This document shows, in pieces, positions 7,482-22,830 of a DNA stretch of 33,563 bases. Under the pieces are notes generated by a model. The model worked only from the letters and a program-made list of their open reading frames with translations. It did no database searches and was not told where the DNA came from. Positions within the stretch are counted from its first letter, which is position 1. Every line of letters starts with the position of its first letter. A program made the translations under genes and the position numbers. Origin of the DNA: a virus; the IMG/VR virus record IMGVR_UViG_3300030104_003193, positions 1-33,563 of that record; one strand, 5' to 3'.

Positions 7482-10400
7482 ATGGCTGAAACATCTGTAG
7501 AAATATATCGTAGAAAGTTACGTGAGCTAGAAGATAAACGTTTAAAAGATGAGATTGGAGACTTTGAGTATTTTTCAGAACTAGATGTATTGCGTAAACG
7601 TTTGCAAGAAGAACAAATATCTGAGACACAGTTAGACTATACTCCTGGAGAAAAAGAACGTGAGTATTATTTTGATGTTCTTGGAAAACTGGAAGGTCAA
7701 GGAGCAGCAAATTTATATGGTGAGCGTTTTGAAAAGATGGGGATGGATCCTTCTGAGGCGTTTGCAAAAGGTAAGGAAAAGATAGCGGCAGACACAAAGA
7801 AGATTCGATATGGTACAGGAGAGTTTATTGAACCATTACCTTCTACGTTTGCAGTAAGTGACATTGTTGATCCTGTAAAGGGATTGATAAAAGATCCTGC
7901 AACAGGTAAAGTACGCAAGGCTACAACAGGTGAAATGGTTTCTTCTGCATTATTTGAACGTCAGCGTAAGCCTACAAAGTTGACTACAGAAGAAGCACGA
8001 TATCAGTTTGAAAGAGATACAGAAAAGTTTCGTAAAGACTTAACAACAAAAGCCAAGTTAAAAAAAATAGGTGCTGGACGTGGTGTACAAAATCTTAATC
8101 TTATTACGTTGTCTCCAGAAGAAGAAGAAGAGATAGAACAAGCAGTAAAGGAACGAGGTCCTTTAACAAGACTTGATGTAAGTCGACAACCAGATAGTCC
8201 TGCTGTGATTATGGAAACTCCTCTTGATTATGGATTACGTTTAATCAATACTTTGTCTGCTGTAGCTGAACCGGCTGTAAAAATATTACAAGAAGGATAC
8301 AGAGCTAGACAAAATGCTAGATTATATTTTAGAACAGGTAATCTTGAAACAATGCCCAAAGCAAAAACACGTAAAGGTGCAGGATTTAAAGAGACAGAAA
8401 TAGAAGGTACAGGTGGTCAGATACTTACGAATATGTTGACTGGACAAGGAGTTTTTGATAGGACACAGGCACAGATGTTGCCCCCAGATGAGAAGGCAAG
8501 TGGCATTGATTACTTTATGACACAAGGAACATTACCTACTATGGCAATGTCATTGGCAACTGAGCTTCCTATACCTATTACTCCATTGGGTATACCCGGT
8601 GTGGGTAAAGCAATAAAATATCCTTTTCGAGCATTTCAAAGTGCAGCGGCACGTGCAGAGATTGACTTGGCATTGCGCAGTGCAGAGACAAAGTTAACAG
8701 CAAAAGATTTACAAACACAAATAAAGGTTCAAGGTGGTACAGCTGACACACCTACATTGCGTAAGAAAGCAGCAGAAGTCATAGGCGATCAGTATGGTAC
8801 ACATGAGAATGCACGTCATTTGATAAAAACAAAAGGTCCACGCGAACTTGTTTTTAGAGATGATTTTGCTAATCAATCTACTTCTTATGTAGAAGAGATT
8901 TTTAAAGGAGCATCTGAAGTAGAGATTGAAGATGTATATAAAGTTTTTGATAAAATGGAAGAAGTATTTTCAGGTGCAGTTGTTGGTGGTAAAAATGAAA
9001 AGATAATACTACGAAGAGTAAAGCAAGTTGCTAATGATACAAGAGACAACATGTTTACAGGAAAAAAACCTGTTCGTGATGAAGGTATTATTAAACGTGC
9101 AATCAATAGATCTAAGATGGAGGATTTAAATGTTTGGAACAAAGCACGTGAGTCAGGTATTCCTCCAGAGTTTTCGAAGACTTTTGATGAGACATATGAC
9201 ATTCTTGAGTTACAAAAACATCAACAGTTAACTCCTGATGAGCTCATAAAACTAGGTAAAAACTTTAATATATTAGATGAAGCAGGTCTTCTTTCTTTTA
9301 GAAAAAGTGTTATTGAAGGAAAGCATATATATGCTGCTGTGCGTAATGCAGTATCAGATGTGATGCGTGATAACTTTTTAAAGAACGTACCTGACGATAT
9401 GATTTATGTGGGCCAAAATGTAGCGGTATCATATAAAAAGGCTACGAATAAATCTTTAATGGATAAGTTTACAAAACAAGTACAACCTTATTTTGAAGAG
9501 ACACAAGAAGGAATACTTGAATCTTTTGCTGCACAAAAAATATTACGATTGCAAAGTAGAAAAGGTTTTGAACTTCCATCATCGTTACAAGAAAAAGTAG
9601 CACAGTTGGCAAATGGAGTAGAGGTAAAGTTACATCCTATAGAGAGTCAGTATCTTACAAATGTAATCAAAGAAGAGTTTGCATTGGACTTACTAGATGG
9701 TGTGCGTATAAAGACAGGTACATTAACTGGTCAGTTAGCAGAAGTACCTAGAGGTGCGCTTCGACAAACATTAATCAAGTCAGGACAAGCACCAACCACA
9801 TCTGTGATATGGGGAAAGAGTATAGCCAACTCAATAAGATTGTTGTTAACAAAAGGTGGTGATTATAGCCAAGCAACAGGAGGAAGGATAAGTCAATGGT
9901 TTAAAGTATTATCTGATGATGTTCCTGCTCCGATGCGACAACTGAGTACAAGTGTAAGTCGAGCTCATGGTGCAGCTACAGATAAAGTTGGTGCAGCATT
10001 ACAGCCTCCTTCCGGAGTTAGACCGGAACAACATTTCCAAGACACTTTTAATAGATACGAACAAGAAGCTATGGATATAAATCTACAGCGGATTGAAGGT
10101 AATATACGAACAGGAGAAGAACTTGCTATTGATTCTACAGCTCGTAGTGAGTTTGTTGGTGAGATAGATTTTAGCAAACAATATGCACCTCGAATAGAAT
10201 CATTAATAGAGACTCGTCAATCATTAATGGATGATGCATTTGCAAAAGAATCTGAAAGGTTAGTAAGTAACTTTGAAAATAGATTAGAAACATCTAAACG
10301 TACATTATCTCAAAAGCATCAAAAAGATTTAGATCGTATTGAAAGAGATTACAGTAGAGAGTTTTTAAGAAATAAATCAAGTGTTCGAAAAATGAGAGAA

Positions 10401-13400
10401 CTGCATACTCAAAAGTATGTAGAGATGATGGATGATTTTGATAAAAAGATGAAGGTTGCAGAAGACACATTATCAAAGACATACCAGAAAGATTTTAATA
10501 AGATACGAAAAGATTATGAAAAAGAAGTACTTACTGCATCAATGAATAAACGTGCAGCACAACAAAAACTGGGTGATACTCGCGTACAAAAGATAGATCA
10601 GTTTGAAGATGCAGCAACAACAGCAAGACAAAGATTAGCAAAACAACAAGACAATGAACTTGAACGTATACACAAAGCATATAGCAGAAAGTTTATAGAG
10701 TTACGTAATAAACAGAGAACAGTAGTTTCAGATTATACAACAAAAGCTACACAAACAAAGAAGCGGTTTGGTCTTGCACGTCAAATAAAAGCTCTTGATA
10801 AAGAATACAAAGAAGCCTATGATATGGTTTTAAACAATAAAGAAGTTGCAGAAGAACTGTTGGAACAAAAGATTAGAGCAGATAGAAAGCGTTTGTACAA
10901 TACTTTTGGAAAAGAAGACACAGCAAAAATACAAAAGATTCAAGAAGTTATAGATAATGCACAGACAAAATATAGAGCACGAATAAATAAAAGTGTAAAA
11001 GAATATAAAGAAATGCGTAAGTTTCTTGATGAATCTATTGCTCCTGAGCGTGAGGAAATGTTTGCTTTAATGGAGCGTATTGATGTAGAAGATGAAATCT
11101 ATCAACAAAAGTTAAAAGATTTATTTAATGTAGAAGACAAGTATAAAGGCAAAGTAGATATAACAATCAATGAATATGAACAGTCTCAAAAGTTGTTAAG
11201 TCAAGTAGCTAAAGCAGAACGTAATGCTTTGTATGATACAATAGCAACCCTTGAAGAAGGAGAAAAATATCAGAAGTTAAAGCAAGCTACAGATACAAAG
11301 CTAGAAAACCTACAACAGCGTATTGATGAACAGGTTGCAAAGAAAGAAGCATTACAAACTCAAAAGAGTGAGAAGGTTGCTACTACTAGAAAGTTAGTGC
11401 AGTTGTCAGATACATATGGACGAGACAATGTAAAAGATTTTTTAGCTCAAGAGTTGGGTAAATCTCCTGATGAAATAAAGTATGAAGATTTAATAGAGCA
11501 AGTGGATTTTATTCAAGAGAATATGCAAGAAGCATCTCGTCAAATATATATGGCTAAAACTTGGAAGAACATGATAAAAGACTTTTTTGTATCTCCCAAG
11601 GATGTAGAAGCATTGGATCCTAGGTGGGTAGATAACATTGATGATTTGATTCGTATAGATAAAAGTCAGCCCTATTGGGTAGCAGGAAACATAAAGCCAT
11701 TAACCATTGATACTTACAAAGAAGTTATTGGACAGTTACGAGAGCTTGATCAGAGTTTAAAAAACTATGGATTAGAACAAACAACATTACTTACTGCGAT
11801 TGTTCCTACCCTTAGAAAAGAAGCATATGTGTTGCCTTTTATTAAAAAAATGATTCAGACACAACGTGCAATGGATATGAAAGTAGAGATTGATAACTTT
11901 ATTACAAAGTCTCCAGATATGTTTGTGAACTTGGACCGAGCAGTAGATGGCACATTAGGTCTTAGGTCTACAGAACGACTTGCAAAACAGATAACAAGTG
12001 AAATAAAAAATACATTTTCTTTTGCTAAGAGTAAAGGATTGGCCGATGATGAGATGATAGATTTATTTACTCATCAGATTCGAGAAGCATTGTTTGATGG
12101 ATGGGCAGCAGACATATGGAAGAACAGTAGCAGGAAAGTACAAACGTCTTTTATAGAAAAGTATATGACAAAAGTAATCCAAGACGGTACGCCTATCATA
12201 AATGATATGGATGGATTTGTTATAGATTTATACAATAGCAACATTTTAAAAAGCAATACGTTTGAATCTATCGAAAAAAAATCACGCGAGGTATTAAACA
12301 AAATCTCTTCTAAGTTTGCAGAAGAAGGAATGACAAAAGAACAAGGCAAAGTGTTTGAGATGTTGGAAAAGACTTTGCTTTCCGAAGAAGGTTTAATATT
12401 AGATATGCGTAAACAGTATCTGAATAATCTTACATTGCGCAGTGATGGTGTGATGGATGGATTGTTTACGCAACAGATAGAAAGTATTAATGACTACTTT
12501 GGAAGGTATGGTTTAAACAATGAAACTATGCTTGAGAATGTAAAGAGAATGGAACCTCGATTAAAGTACATGGGAGCTAGGAATATTGGTGTAATCTATG
12601 GAGACATGCATCAAAAAATGATGAACGAAGTAGTAGAGATTGCAAACAATACAAAGGGAAAACGTTTTATATCTGAGTTGCAGACACGTTTTGCAACAGC
12701 CAAAAATCCACAGTCTAACTTTGCAGGGTACTACTTTGCTGATGCAGTAAATGTTACAAGACGTTGGTCTATTGCAAGAATGTTGGGTGGTGTTTTAGAA
12801 CCAAGTACAAAGTTTTTTGGTATGAACCGAATGACAGCTCCATATTTATTTTTTGCGGCATTGGGTTCTGGTTCAATGAAAGCAAGTACAGCAGCAAAGT
12901 TTACAGCTTTAGCAACGGGAGGTGGGCTGGTTCCTCTTCCTATTGTTACTGCCGCAGTACGCAAACTAGGTAACAAATCTTTTACAGGTTTTATAGATTC
13001 TAATAAAGTAATGCTTGCTCCTGCTGAAGAAGTATTGATTAGACAATCAGATGGTGCAGTACGAAACATGACAGCAGGTGAGTTACGTGAAATAATGTTG
13101 AATGAAGGTGTGATGTATTCACGTGCAGATGCTGACTTCCTTGATACACAGTTTAATCGTTTGTTGATTGATGCAGGTATAACTGTAGATGGATTGGCTC
13201 GGTATTACAACCATCCAAAATCGTTGGCACGTAAGATATATGACAACTTATCTCCATCAGGTAAGAACTTGTGGGCTGAGTTTGCTAAGTTCCAAGATAC
13301 AGAGATGCGTAGATATGTGTTTATGCAAGCTCTGAAAGATGGAGAGAGCATACCTAATGCTGCTGAGAAAGCCAGACGTTCTATGTTGGACTATGGTTCA

Positions 13401-14474
13401 TTATCTGATATTGAAAAGAACATGTATTTTAGACAGATATATTTTTATAGTTTTATGCGTACGATGGGTGCAGAGACTATTAATGCGATTTATCGAGGTG
13501 TGTTGGGAGATAACTTTAATCCTGCGATGGGATTAATAAAAGCACAAAGCAGATTAAATCAAGAAACAGAAGATAGAGCAATGTCTATGCAAACGGATTC
13601 TCGTATCTATAATCTTTTTAAAGGAGGTGCAGAAGGTCAGAGCTCTTACATGGGTGGTCCGGTTAATCCATCTGTGTCTATGTTTGATTTAATGTCACGT
13701 GCTACATTAATGATGACAGCAGGTATACAGTCAATGACTAGAGAACAACAAGATTTTGAAATGTCATTGTTGGATTCAGTCAGTGCAGCACTTTCAGCTA
13801 CAGGTACAAGTGCAGGTGAAACTTATATAAGTGGGAATCCATTTTTAAGTATACTTATGGAAGGGTATCGTGCAAGTAAAGAAGAACGTCCTATACCTTT
13901 TCCATCAGAGTTACAATACGAAGCAGATAAAAATGGAAATATGTTAGAGGTTATAGAACAGTATGGATTGGAGCCTAGACACAGAACAGCAGGAAGACCA
14001 TTAACTACATCTCCTGTACGAGACAAAACAACGGGTGAGATTTTGTATCCGGCAGGAACATACTTTGATTTTCCTAGAACATCTAAGGGATTGGATGAAG
14101 GATACAATCTATATCTTTGGCAACGTGTTGTAGGATTAACAGCCTTTGCAGAAGTATTTTCACGTTCAGGTCTAGCTCCTGCTGCAATGACACGTTTTCA
14201 CAAAGACACATTGCGAGCATCAATGGCATCTGCAAGAGATCCTAGGATGGAAGGAAGAGAAGGTGAAGTTCGTATTCCAATGGAATCTGTGTATACAAAA
14301 ACTTTAAATCAACAAGACCTTGATATGCGTTCGAATATAGTTTATGCATTATATATGTTGGGTTTGGCTACACCAGTAAAAGCAACAAAACGAAATGTCA
14401 TAATGGAAAGATTATTGAGAAATGCCCAAAAGCAGATTAAACAAACAGAAGATAAACTTAATGAACAGAGATAA
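7482..14474 (+). CDS. Giant internal virion/ejection protein, 2330 aa
   Basis: This single gene takes about 21% of the genome. The N-terminal 300 residues are charged and helical. Residues around 340-390 contain hydrophobic segments (PTMAMSLATELPIPITPLG). About residues 880-1290 form a long Lys/Glu/Gln-rich coiled coil with repeated 'DF.KK....E.TL....QKD...I...Y' patterns. A later stretch (about 1760-1840) is hydrophobic and Gly/Ala-rich (LFFAALGSGSMKASTAAKF), a possible membrane-interacting part. I found no lytic transglycosylase, polymerase or peptidase motif by eye. Its place after two helical virion genes matches T7 gp16, the largest ejected core protein, though it is nearly twice that size. 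An alternative is a large polyvalent-type virion protein. The helical region could also measure length. Confidence 0.62.
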   Translation: MAETSVEIYRRKLRELEDKRLKDEIGDFEYFSELDVLRKRLQEEQISETQLDYTPGEKEREYYFDVLGKLEGQGAANLYGERFEKMGMDPSEAFAKGKEKIAADTKKIRYGTGEFIEPLPSTFAVSDIVDPVKGLIKDPATGKVRKATTGEMVSSALFERQRKPTKLTTEEARYQFERDTEKFRKDLTTKAKLKKIGAGRGVQNLNLITLSPEEEEEIEQAVKERGPLTRLDVSRQPDSPAVIMETPLDYGLRLINTLSAVAEPAVKILQEGYRARQNARLYFRTGNLETMPKAKTRKGAGFKETEIEGTGGQILTNMLTGQGVFDRTQAQMLPPDEKASGIDYFMTQGTLPTMAMSLATELPIPITPLGIPGVGKAIKYPFRAFQSAAARAEIDLALRSAETKLTAKDLQTQIKVQGGTADTPTLRKKAAEVIGDQYGTHENARHLIKTKGPRELVFRDDFANQSTSYVEEIFKGASEVEIEDVYKVFDKMEEVFSGAVVGGKNEKIILRRVKQVANDTRDNMFTGKKPVRDEGIIKRAINRSKMEDLNVWNKARESGIPPEFSKTFDETYDILELQKHQQLTPDELIKLGKNFNILDEAGLLSFRKSVIEGKHIYAAVRNAVSDVMRDNFLKNVPDDMIYVGQNVAVSYKKATNKSLMDKFTKQVQPYFEETQEGILESFAAQKILRLQSRKGFELPSSLQEKVAQLANGVEVKLHPIESQYLTNVIKEEFALDLLDGVRIKTGTLTGQLAEVPRGALRQTLIKSGQAPTTSVIWGKSIANSIRLLLTKGGDYSQATGGRISQWFKVLSDDVPAPMRQLSTSVSRAHGAATDKVGAALQPPSGVRPEQHFQDTFNRYEQEAMDINLQRIEGNIRTGEELAIDSTARSEFVGEIDFSKQYAPRIESLIETRQSLMDDAFAKESERLVSNFENRLETSKRTLSQKHQKDLDRIERDYSREFLRNKSSVRKMRELHTQKYVEMMDDFDKKMKVAEDTLSKTYQKDFNKIRKDYEKEVLTASMNKRAAQQKLGDTRVQKIDQFEDAATTARQRLAKQQDNELERIHKAYSRKFIELRNKQRTVVSDYTTKATQTKKRFGLARQIKALDKEYKEAYDMVLNNKEVAEELLEQKIRADRKRLYNTFGKEDTAKIQKIQEVIDNAQTKYRARINKSVKEYKEMRKFLDESIAPEREEMFALMERIDVEDEIYQQKLKDLFNVEDKYKGKVDITINEYEQSQKLLSQVAKAERNALYDTIATLEEGEKYQKLKQATDTKLENLQQRIDEQVAKKEALQTQKSEKVATTRKLVQLSDTYGRDNVKDFLAQELGKSPDEIKYEDLIEQVDFIQENMQEASRQIYMAKTWKNMIKDFFVSPKDVEALDPRWVDNIDDLIRIDKSQPYWVAGNIKPLTIDTYKEVIGQLRELDQSLKNYGLEQTTLLTAIVPTLRKEAYVLPFIKKMIQTQRAMDMKVEIDNFITKSPDMFVNLDRAVDGTLGLRSTERLAKQITSEIKNTFSFAKSKGLADDEMIDLFTHQIREALFDGWAADIWKNSSRKVQTSFIEKYMTKVIQDGTPIINDMDGFVIDLYNSNILKSNTFESIEKKSREVLNKISSKFAEEGMTKEQGKVFEMLEKTLLSEEGLILDMRKQYLNNLTLRSDGVMDGLFTQQIESINDYFGRYGLNNETMLENVKRMEPRLKYMGARNIGVIYGDMHQKMMNEVVEIANNTKGKRFISELQTRFATAKNPQSNFAGYYFADAVNVTRRWSIARMLGGVLEPSTKFFGMNRMTAPYLFFAALGSGSMKASTAAKFTALATGGGLVPLPIVTAAVRKLGNKSFTGFIDSNKVMLAPAEEVLIRQSDGAVRNMTAGELREIMLNEGVMYSRADADFLDTQFNRLLIDAGITVDGLARYYNHPKSLARKIYDNLSPSGKNLWAEFAKFQDTEMRRYVFMQALKDGESIPNAAEKARRSMLDYGSLSDIEKNMYFRQIYFYSFMRTMGAETINAIYRGVLGDNFNPAMGLIKAQSRLNQETEDRAMSMQTDSRIYNLFKGGAEGQSSYMGGPVNPSVSMFDLMSRATLMMTAGIQSMTREQQDFEMSLLDSVSAALSATGTSAGETYISGNPFLSILMEGYRASKEERPIPFPSELQYEADKNGNMLEVIEQYGLEPRHRTAGRPLTTSPVRDKTTGEILYPAGTYFDFPRTSKGLDEGYNLYLWQRVVGLTAFAEVFSRSGLAPAAMTRFHKDTLRASMASARDPRMEGREGEVRIPMESVYTKTLNQQDLDMRSNIVYALYMLGLATPVKATKRNVIMERLLRNAQKQIKQTEDKLNEQR

Positions 14475-17709: not shown

Positions 17710-18618
17710 ATGGTAAAGATAGGATCTGCATTCTCTGGTATTGGAGGATTTGAACTTGGGCTTGAACGAGCAATACCCAACAGCAAAACAGTTTGGCAGA
17801 TAGAACAGAATCCTTTTTGTCAGAAGATACTGCGCAAGCATTGGCCTGATGCAAAGATATATGATGATGTACGAGAGGTGGGTGTTCATAACCTGGAGCC
17901 AGTTGATATTTTTTGTGCTGGTTTTCCATGTCAAGATATATCCATAGCAGGAAAAGGAGAGGGTTTAGATGGTAAGAAGTCTGGTCTTTGGTGGGAATGT
18001 TTCAGAATCATTAGCGAGTTACGACCACGAATCATCGTGTTGGAGAACGTCTCAGCTATCACTTTTCGAGGAGGAAGAGAAGTGGTTGGGTCGCTTACCT
18101 CAATCGGGTATGACAGATGCGAGTGGCAAGTTATATCAGCTCGGATGTTCGGTGCGCCTCATATCCGCAAACGATGGTTCCTTGTCGGTCATGCTTCCAA
18201 CACCAACAACGGACCAAAGACCACAGAGGTACAAGCAGGGAGGTCGGAGCACGTGGTGTGCGATACTGGAGGATGGAGTAATGTTGCCTACACCAACAGC
18301 AAAAGCAAACCAGACTGCTCCCACCATGCGCAAACATTGGAAGGGGATACTGCCTACACCATTAGCAAGCACAGCAAAGAACAATCCATCGACACCATCA
18401 GAATGGAACAGGAACGCCAGTCTAAATATAGAAGTAGTCAAAGCAATCGGACATACGAAGGAAACTATTGGCAACGACATGCGCCTCAATCCCCAGTTTG
18501 TAGAGTGGATGATGGGATTCCCAACAGGGTGGACAGACTTAGAGCTCTAGGTAATGCTATTGTTCCTCAGTGCTCAGAGTATATTGGCAAGTGTATTGTC
18601 GGTTCTGGTCTTCTATAA
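17710..18618 (+). CDS. DNA (cytosine-5) methyltransferase, 302 aa
   Basis: It transfers a methyl group from S-adenosylmethionine to C5 of cytosine. Motif I is FSGIGGFELGL (residues 8-18), motif IV is GFPCQDIS with the catalytic C74, then GKGEGLDGKKSGLWWE, motif VI is ENV (112-114), motif VIII is GAPHIRKRWFLV (148-159), and the C-terminal motif is LGNAIVP (280-286). All core motifs are present and intact. The target-recognition stretch (about 160-265) is short, polar and low in hydrophobic residues, unlike a normal folded recognition domain. That stretch and motif VI also encode a second protein in the +1 frame (17969-18550). The start has no convincing ribosome site. It may protect phage DNA against host or rival nucleases. 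It ends 6 nt inside the convergent nuclease-like gene. Confidence 0.9.
   Translation: MVKIGSAFSGIGGFELGLERAIPNSKTVWQIEQNPFCQKILRKHWPDAKIYDDVREVGVHNLEPVDIFCAGFPCQDISIAGKGEGLDGKKSGLWWECFRIISELRPRIIVLENVSAITFRGGREVVGSLTSIGYDRCEWQVISARMFGAPHIRKRWFLVGHASNTNNGPKTTEVQAGRSEHVVCDTGGWSNVAYTNSKSKPDCSHHAQTLEGDTAYTISKHSKEQSIDTIRMEQERQSKYRSSQSNRTYEGNYWQRHAPQSPVCRVDDGIPNRVDRLRALGNAIVPQCSEYIGKCIVGSGLL
17969..18550 (+). CDS. Overlapping +1-frame gene inside the C5 methyltransferase (LPTP-repeat, 'WMMGFP' protein), 193 aa
   Basis: An ATG-started ORF entirely within the methyltransferase gene. Its own ribosome site AGGAGA ends 8 nt before the ATG. The protein has SSCWRTSQLSLF (residues 22-33), LPQSGMTDASGKLYQL (43-58), three LPTP motifs (76-79, 106-109, 128-131) and ends with LNPQFVEWMMGFPTGW (173-188). 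From memory, this order of motifs recurs in many phage and bacterial proteins of unknown role, often near methyltransferases. Here each motif is the +1 reading of a methyltransferase motif: CWRTSQLSLF over VLENVSAITF, LPTPT over A(S/Y)TN, and GFPTGWTDL over GIPNRVDRL. That such a coherent family appears by chance is unlikely, but expression is not proven and some matches could be forced by the methyltransferase code. Confidence 0.55.
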   Translation: MVRSLVFGGNVSESLASYDHESSCWRTSQLSLFEEEEKWLGRLPQSGMTDASGKLYQLGCSVRLISANDGSLSVMLPTPTTDQRPQRYKQGGRSTWCAILEDGVMLPTPTAKANQTAPTMRKHWKGILPTPLASTAKNNPSTPSEWNRNASLNIEVVKAIGHTKETIGNDMRLNPQFVEWMMGFPTGWTDLEL

Positions 18619-19269
18619 GTTTGGAAGGAAAGGAGCGTGTTTATATATGGTCGGTATTTTTGGTTCCATCATACGTTGTTGGATAACATATAGGTATTGA
18701 TCTTCGATGTCTTCTCTTGTCGGTATCTGATCGACACATCCAATGTATCCATGTATGGTTGAGTCTTTTAAAAACTTAACTCCTTCAGCCTTTGCTCTTG
18801 GAGCTTTGATTCGATGCATGTACATTGACTTGACAGCAGCAACAAACATATCTCCATTGTACCAGTAGTGTCGGCCTGTTGGTATGTCGACGTATACAAT
18901 ATAGTTGGGAACATATACCAAGTACTCTGCATATCCCATGGTCGCTGTTTGTAGTATCTCAGCAAAGAATGTAGGATACCGATCACCACAGTTCGCTGAC
19001 TTAACCTCGATAGTACGTATGTCGTTTCCTATCTCCAACACTACATCATACGGTGTGCTCTTGCTCTTGGGTAGATGTGCATTCTTTAATCCCTGCATCA
19101 TGAAGAGAGAAAAGAAAGACTCGCTGTGATGGTTGAGCATGTCCACCACAGCGAGTTCTGATATGAGTCCGGTCTTGAGGAGTTTATGAAATGATTGGTT
19201 TGTCATCTTGTTCTGGGGAGTAGTACCATCCAGAACGGTTATCTCCATTTCGTCTACATCGCTTGCCAT
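18613..19269 (-). CDS. PD-(D/E)XK nuclease-like protein, 218 aa
   Basis: Near the N-terminus is the pattern LLKTGLISELAVVDML, followed by STPYDVVLEIG and RTIEVKSA. The Asp of YDVV and the E-x-K of IEVKSA form the PD-(D/E)XK catalytic set, and the Glu in the first helix (ISEL) fits the additional active-site Glu in many members. The C-terminal half has no obvious motif. Candidate roles are a recombination or replication nuclease, host DNA degradation, or a restriction enzyme paired with the adjacent methyltransferase. It is the last gene of the early minus-strand block, overlaps the helicase end by 86 nt if the ATG at 19269 is used (23 nt if ATG 19206), and meets the methyltransferase tail to tail. 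Confidence 0.68.
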   Translation of the reverse strand: MASDVDEMEITVLDGTTPQNKMTNQSFHKLLKTGLISELAVVDMLNHHSESFFSLFMMQGLKNAHLPKSKSTPYDVVLEIGNDIRTIEVKSANCGDRYPTFFAEILQTATMGYAEYLVYVPNYIVYVDIPTGRHYWYNGDMFVAAVKSMYMHRIKAPRAKAEGVKFLKDSTIHGYIGCVDQIPTREDIEDQYLYVIQQRMMEPKIPTIYKHAPFLPNL

Positions 19270-22263: not shown

Positions 22264-22552
22264 GGTCTGTGTCTCCAAATGTGGGTGTGTATATCATGGT
22301 CATGTCGTACTCTCCTTTGGTCGGGGGTGGTGGTGGTGGAAATAGTGTTGCCTCAATCGCACGTAGTTTGCGCTTGATGTCGATTATCTTTTGATGTATC
22401 GCACCAATGGATACCAGTCTCATCTCTTTAATATGGTCGGTCATCGCTTCTTGCGTACGTGCATATGTGAGCAAGTGAAAGCCCAGAATCTTTTGTTGCT
22501 CTTCGAGTTGGTCGGTTAGTTCGGTGTGTCGGTCGGTCGGTCGGTCGGTCAT
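22256..22552 (-). CDS. Small hypothetical early protein with N-terminal tetranucleotide tract, 98 aa
   Basis: The ATG at 22552 is set by its overlap with the stop of the upstream gene (ATGA) and by a leader AGAGACCGACC that is a variant of the shared junction motif. The first residues, TDRPTDRH, come from a run of GACC units (about 22529-22550). The rest is helical (TDQLEEQQKILGFHLLTYA; AIHQKIIDIKRKLRAIEATL) and then a run of six prolines. It ends with FGDTDHE from the junction motif. A longer in-frame ORF goes upstream to 22768, but it would overlap the SWIM-like gene in a different frame, so I rejected it. Function unknown. Confidence 0.6.
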   Translation of the reverse strand: MTDRPTDRHTELTDQLEEQQKILGFHLLTYARTQEAMTDHIKEMRLVSIGAIHQKIIDIKRKLRAIEATLFPPPPPPTKGEYDMTMIYTPTFGDTDHE

Positions 22553-22597
22553 GGTCGGTCTCTTGTGTCGGTGGTGTGTGTGTCGGTCGGTCGGTCG
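22530..22597. repeat. Two GGTC/GACC tetranucleotide tracts in coding DNA
   Basis: Two runs of the tetranucleotide GGTC (plus strand), five units each, lie at about 22530-22549 and 22580-22597, separated by a mixed GT-rich spacer. The first tract encodes the start of the 98-residue gene and the second the tail of the SWIM-like gene. Loss or gain of one unit would shift the frame. Confidence 0.75.
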
Positions 22598-22830
22598 GAG
22601 CTTAAAGCATCTTGCACAAAAGCTCGCGCAAGTTTTTTGTGATAGCATTCTTTCTTGTACCTGGTCGCAGCACAATAACAGACCACACCGAGTCCTCCAT
22701 TTAATCTCAAGTATACTCGAGTCACTGGCGTGTTTATGTCGGTCGTGTTCCATATGATTTGATAACATGTTATTGTGTGGTCGTTGATCTGTTGTACTCT
22801 CTTGATCATTTTTATTGGTGCACGTTTCAT
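22549..22830 (-). CDS. Small SWIM-type zinc-finger-like protein, 93 aa
   Basis: Residues about 50-72 contain CYCAATRYKKECYHKKLA. The C-x-C-x8-C-x-H spacing matches the SWIM zinc finger (C-x-C-x(n)-C-x-H), and the preceding strands (VYLRLNGGLGVV) fit the beta hairpin that normally carries it. The C-terminus DRPTDTHTTDTRDRP is encoded by GACC repeats and is probably unstructured. The ATG at 22830 overlaps the stop of the upstream 37-residue gene as ATGA. Its stop overlaps the next start in the same way. Stand-alone SWIM proteins often bind DNA or partner proteins, but no role is known here. Confidence 0.6.
   Translation of the reverse strand: MKRAPIKMIKRVQQINDHTITCYQIIWNTTDINTPVTRVYLRLNGGLGVVCYCAATRYKKECYHKKLARAFVQDALSSDRPTDTHTTDTRDRP

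Follow-up and report, generated by a model that had tools for sequence, protein, structure and literature searches.

A predicted C5 cytosine methyltransferase gene on a virus contig contains, in its +1 reading frame, a second open reading frame of 193 codons, and this raises the question of whether the latter is a gene in its own right and, if so, what its product would contribute. The contig (33,563 bases, the whole of which is referred to below as the window) also carries phage terminase, VapE-type and amidase genes. A preliminary description of the window had proposed a real overlapping gene, possibly an old overprint that also exists as a stand-alone family. The analysis bore out the gene but not its supposed nature, since the +1 product appears to be the recognition and motif IX half of the methyltransferase itself and not a foreign second gene.

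The locus and its two reading frames

The methyltransferase frame (alpha) matches PF00145 over residues 3-248 (E 2e-44) and contains both catalytic signatures of C5 methyltransferases, GFPCQ and ENV. Motifs I-VIII and motif X are located in alpha, with a neutral linker in between, and motifs IV-VIII are overlapped by betaN, the conserved N-terminal part of the +1 frame gene (beta). The features of the locus are listed in Table 1.

Table 1. Features of the methyltransferase locus (positions in the window).
Feature	Position	Strand	Basis
Alpha, C5 cytosine methyltransferase frame, 302 aa	17710..18618	+	PF00145; tiling of the single-chain profile
Alpha, catalytic part, motifs I-VIII	17713..18190	+	single-chain profile (domain E 1e-54); M.HhaI match, residues 7-164
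AGGAGA, ribosome-site-like, for beta	17955..17960	+	enrichment in relatives (z 5.7 for at least 4 bases)
Beta, +1 frame gene, 193 aa, putative recognition cassettes and motif IX	17969..18550	+	conservation, selection, profile; phrog_1008
BetaN, conserved N-terminal part of beta (CWRTSQLSLF ... LPQSGM)	17972..18193	+	relatives, selection
Cassette 1 of beta (LPTPTTDQRPQRYKQGGRSTWCAILEDGVM)	18194..18283	+	cassette clustering; missing from L005 and L086
Cassette 2 of beta (LPTPTAKANQTAPTMRKHWKGI)	18284..18349	+	cassette clustering; missing from L086
Cassette 3 of beta (LPTPLASTAKNNPSTPSEWNRNASLNIEVV...)	18350..18481	+	cassette clustering
Beta, motif IX (RLNPQFVEWMMGFPTGWTDLEL)	18482..18547	+	motif IX region of the single-chain profile (domain E 6e-7)
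Alpha, motif X, RALGNAIVPQ	18541..18570	+	sequence; weak profile match (5.5 bits), right place

The position, length and quoted motifs of the +1 frame agreed with the preliminary description, as did the AGGAGA sequence placed 8 nt upstream of the beta ATG; no evident ribosome site precedes the ATG of alpha, as judged by eye. CWRTSQLSLF is indeed the +1 reading of VLENVSAITF in alpha, and MGFPTGW that of DDGIPNRV. A TAG codon of the beta frame (17966-17968) directly abuts the beta ATG.

Several other features of the window were recorded. An ORF of 218 aa without a Pfam match (18613-19269, minus strand) is convergent with the methyltransferase gene and shares its last 6 bases, a phage protein of 2330 aa (7482-14474) likewise has no Pfam match, and approximately 17 imperfect copies of GTCG are arranged in tandem at 22528-22598, inside overlapping minus-strand ORFs.

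Conservation of the +1 frame and the constraint on each frame

Relatives of the locus were found in phages of Synechococcus, Acinetobacter, Paenibacillus, Lactobacillus, Mycobacterium, Gordonia, Arthrobacter and Streptomyces, in plasmid records (including those of Leptospira, Acinetobacter and Enterobacter) and in many bacterial genomes; in the Paenibacillus phages Diva and Lily, beta carries the annotators' label "internal gene". We fetched 80 viral loci with the alpha alignment alone, hence without any choice for beta; in 76 of them the +1 frame contains betaN and motif IX, and motif X is in the alpha frame. Beta is free of stops in 116 diverse loci (representatives that had to carry betaN and motif IX in +1), where 397 stops would be expected. 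In the window, the +1 frame remained open in 0.57% of the synonymous permutations of the alpha codons, and in 0.1% when the codon order was shuffled. Judged from these comparisons, double coding appears to be the normal layout across a large methyltransferase family of phages and prophages.

Stops in close relatives had been named beforehand as a sign against beta; their absence from the 116 loci speaks for the gene, but one close relative of the window (L007) does have such a stop, a TAG at positions 1879-1881 (TGG in L005) that breaks beta and leaves alpha open. This may perhaps reflect decay or a sequencing error.

Conservation and selection are evident in both frames, and the constraint is divided between them. 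In the cassette region of 24 close relatives with a gap-free overlap, which were used for per-position rates, we found 0.140 changes per site at alpha position 1 (the third position of beta), against 0.021 and 0.015 at alpha positions 2 and 3; outside the overlap, alpha position 3 was the fast one, as usual. The dN/dS of beta in the cassette region of these relatives was 0.11 (0.04-0.24) and that of alpha was 1.09, with a very wide interval (0.28-9.0). The corresponding values for the window's own clade were 0.58 (0.42-0.77) for beta and 1.53 (1.05-2.48) for alpha. In 69 independent pairs, beta was under purifying selection both in betaN (0.77; 0.68-0.87) and in the cassettes (0.78; 0.68-0.89), and alpha gave 0.35 in betaN and 0.97 (0.91-1.03) in the cassettes. 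Cassette-region estimates obtained from widely diverged sequences were discarded as alignment noise.

These estimates indicate that alpha is constrained over the catalytic motifs and drifts over the cassettes, while beta is constrained in both. In the cassette region alpha therefore looks like a passenger frame, and this stretch of it appears to serve as a linker whose frame stays open so that motif X can be reached, which would account for the earlier remark that the recognition stretch of alpha is unlike a folded domain. The term "overprint" suits only the first 75 or so codons of beta, where alpha is the more constrained frame; it does not suit the cassettes, where this relation is reversed.

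Ribosome sites of at least 4 bases occurred at the expected start of beta in 60 of 92 loci, compared with 36.3 when the alpha codons were resampled synonymously (z 5.7). This enrichment favours a separate start of beta over frameshifting, and the ribosome-site test thereby joins conservation, selection and codon permutation in supporting the proposal of a real overlapping gene. No start codon was present near the expected position in 24 of the 116 loci.

Beta as the probable missing part of the methyltransferase

The family phrog_1008, annotated as "DNA methyltransferase", matches beta at E 2e-22. A profile was built from 24 actinobacterial relatives whose single polypeptide has motif IX as well as motifs I-VIII and X, and this single-chain profile is tiled by the two products of the window (scores in Table 1): alpha covers motifs I-VIII and, weakly, motif X, and beta covers motif IX, which reads LNPQFVEWMMGFPTGW. 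Motifs IX and X of C5 methyltransferases are consequently both present across the pair. In Streptomyces and Mycobacterium phages the first gene ends once motif VIII is complete; LPTPT stretches, a motif-IX-like sequence (LxPxFxEWMMGxxxGW) and motif X are encoded by a second gene, which lies in +1. Taken together, the alignments suggest that beta encodes the part missing from the overlapped C5 methyltransferase, namely the recognition cassettes and motif IX.

A structural model of a single-chain relative (L125; pTM 0.79) could be superimposed on M.HhaI over residues 1-347 (Z 26, rmsd 3.8, 241 residues aligned), with the cassette region of the model being of low confidence. The AlphaFold model of beta alone (105 sequences, the alignment lacking two rows from the annotated phage collection) had a mean pLDDT of 59 and was set aside for claims about fold. 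Searches with beta gave no matching model in Pfam, NCBIfam or PADLOC and only a chance match among PDB sequences, and none of 107 betas matched Pfam.

BetaN also occurs without any overlap, in two Bifidobacteriaceae genomes. In that of Bombiscardovia coagulans (L147) all of the parts are joined in one frame of 690 residues, in which betaN lies behind motif VIII and matches the +1 betaN of other loci (BLASTP, E 4e-8). In the other genome (L253), found by searching the same family, betaN is likewise in frame behind motif VIII, and the +1 frame over motif VIII is closed. This location identifies betaN as a protein segment in its own right, and the matches to the +1 protein are thus not all second-frame readings of methyltransferase genes. 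The stand-alone family that had been envisaged was not encountered, as we found none away from methyltransferases. The caveat that +1 similarity might be forced by conserved alpha codons proved to be justified in part, since a relative with a closed frame still scores 20.7 bits against the betaN profile, but most of the nested relatives score about 50-88 bits.

The cassettes of beta are modular. Mostly one to four are present per locus (277 in total, median length 40 residues), each is opened by an LPTPT-like anchor, and 18 clusters of at least three related cassettes recur over different loci and positions. The window has three cassettes, L005 retains the second and third, and L086 only the third, the breaks being located at the anchors, where the DNA repeats closely. 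In actinobacteria, one cassette type is found both in the +1 frame (L110) and in the alpha frame (L105). Multispecific C5 methyltransferases of Bacillus phages carry serial recognition units of approximately 40 residues in a single chain and a single frame; the window resembles them in its serial modular cassettes and differs from them in placing these in a second frame. By position, size and modularity the cassettes look comparable to such units, and the LPTPT-anchored cassettes, at about 40 residues each, probably act as separate recognition units.

A putative two-subunit enzyme, alternative readings and known systems

We consider it probable, on the strength of the comparisons described above, that this single stretch of DNA encodes a two-subunit C5 cytosine methyltransferase, composed of alpha and a separately started beta. 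Motif X and the large catalytic domain with motifs I-VIII would come from alpha; the recognition cassettes and motif IX would come from beta, for which translation in the +1 frame would begin at a ribosome site of its own. The two would assemble into a complete enzyme methylating the phage DNA, most likely as a protection against host restriction. With several cassettes, each probably a separate recognition unit with a target of its own, the enzyme may be multispecific; loss and reuse of the cassettes proceed unit by unit.

Ribosomal frameshifting from alpha would instead yield a single trans-frame chain, in which motifs I-VIII are joined to the cassettes and motif IX. The existence of single-chain relatives agrees with this, the alternating cassette frames of actinobacteria would fit recoding, and the loci without a clear beta start point the same way. 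We nevertheless regard frameshifting as unlikely, because ribosome sites are enriched at the beta start and because the TAG abutting the beta ATG of the window means that any shift must fall inside betaN; part of betaN would in that case be left out of the product, yet it is constrained as a protein.

If, on the other hand, beta were a real gene with a separate function, such as a regulator or an anti-restriction protein, the lack of a match among the Pfam, NCBIfam and PADLOC models would be understandable. The phrog_1008 match is to a family annotated as DNA methyltransferase, however, beta fills the part that is missing relative to single-chain relatives, and in the split forms the +1 gene carries motif X as well, all of which makes a separate function quite improbable. 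Least credible of all is an artefact, with the open frame and its motifs forced by conserved alpha codons. The similarity of betaN is partly forced, as the score of the closed +1 frame indicates, and L007 has an in-frame stop, but an artefact is contradicted by selection on beta where alpha is neutral, by the absence of stops where hundreds were expected, by betaN without overlap, and by the homology of the beta motif IX to the in-frame motif IX of single-chain relatives.

Actinobacterial forms whose cassettes alternate between frames, some with motifs IX and X in frame with alpha and the first cassette alone in +1, are not accounted for by a two-subunit enzyme of the simple kind. Relative to alpha, motif IX has switched frame at least 11 times in a FastTree phylogeny of 177 alpha sequences, in which many branches are weakly supported. 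A broader proposal, to which we give slightly more credence than doubt, is that these phage methyltransferases form a large family, for the most part unannotated, whose recognition subunit would be a swappable cassette array in the +1 frame of the catalytic gene. Over the array the catalytic frame would be neutral and would stay open for no other reason than to extend to motif X; specificity would change through recombination at the repeated LPTPT anchors, and motif IX, motif X and single cassettes would have switched frames repeatedly.

To our knowledge, nested split C5 methyltransferases are represented by very few enzymes, such as M.EcoHK31I, whose small subunit is reportedly encoded out of frame within the gene for the large one, as beta of the window is within alpha. 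This precedent means that the architecture as such is already known. According to the motif description in PMC3404938, which cites Lee, Kam and Shaw (1995), M.EcoHK31I (YGGCCR) is a C5 methyltransferase made of two polypeptides, the larger containing motifs I-VIII and X and the smaller motif IX, which is the distribution seen in alpha and beta. The recognition domain of M.EcoHK31I was predicted to be part of the large subunit, whereas in the window selection places the recognition-like cassettes in beta and leaves alpha neutral. M.AquI (CYCGRG) is described in PMC3404938 as two polypeptides that jointly carry the motifs and are split within the variable region. Those actinophage relatives whose second gene carries both motif IX and motif X resemble M.AquI; the window does not, since its motif X stays in alpha and its genes overlap over the entire length of beta. 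A literature search for YdiO/YdiP of BsuMI found nothing.

Gene pairs annotated as phrog_1008 or "DNA methylase" in mycobacteriophages and in Streptomyces and Paenibacillus phages belong to the same family and have the same +1 arrangement as the window. Their annotators noted the overlapping gene and assigned to it at most "methyltransferase" or "hypothetical"; some records of the phrog_1008 family annotate alpha only. What is apparently new here is the spread of the layout, the placement of recognition cassettes in the +1 frame, the loss and reuse of cassettes, and the changes of frame. The nested layout is the usual state of the family, which spans bacterial genomes as well as phages infecting a wide range of hosts; several records annotate just one gene of the two. 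If both subunits are needed, many phage genes annotated as "DNA cytosine methyltransferase" would code for only one half of the enzyme, and any recognition site predicted from the alpha frame would be based on a neutral linker. The family is, in addition, a clear example of dual-frame coding that has lasted a long time, with the constraint shared out between the frames, and L147 and L253 represent relatives without overlap.

In four loci, L105, L133, L232 (Gordonia phage Bibwit) and L246 (Mycobacterium phage Seagreen), betaN and the first cassette are read in +1, and motifs IX and X are found in frame with alpha. Phage methylases can contain homing HNH insertions (PMC11855218), which were considered and set apart as a phenomenon separate from the overlap described here. 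The annotation of Bibwit (L232:1654-3363) gives the methyltransferase as a joined gene and places an HNH endonuclease gene within it.
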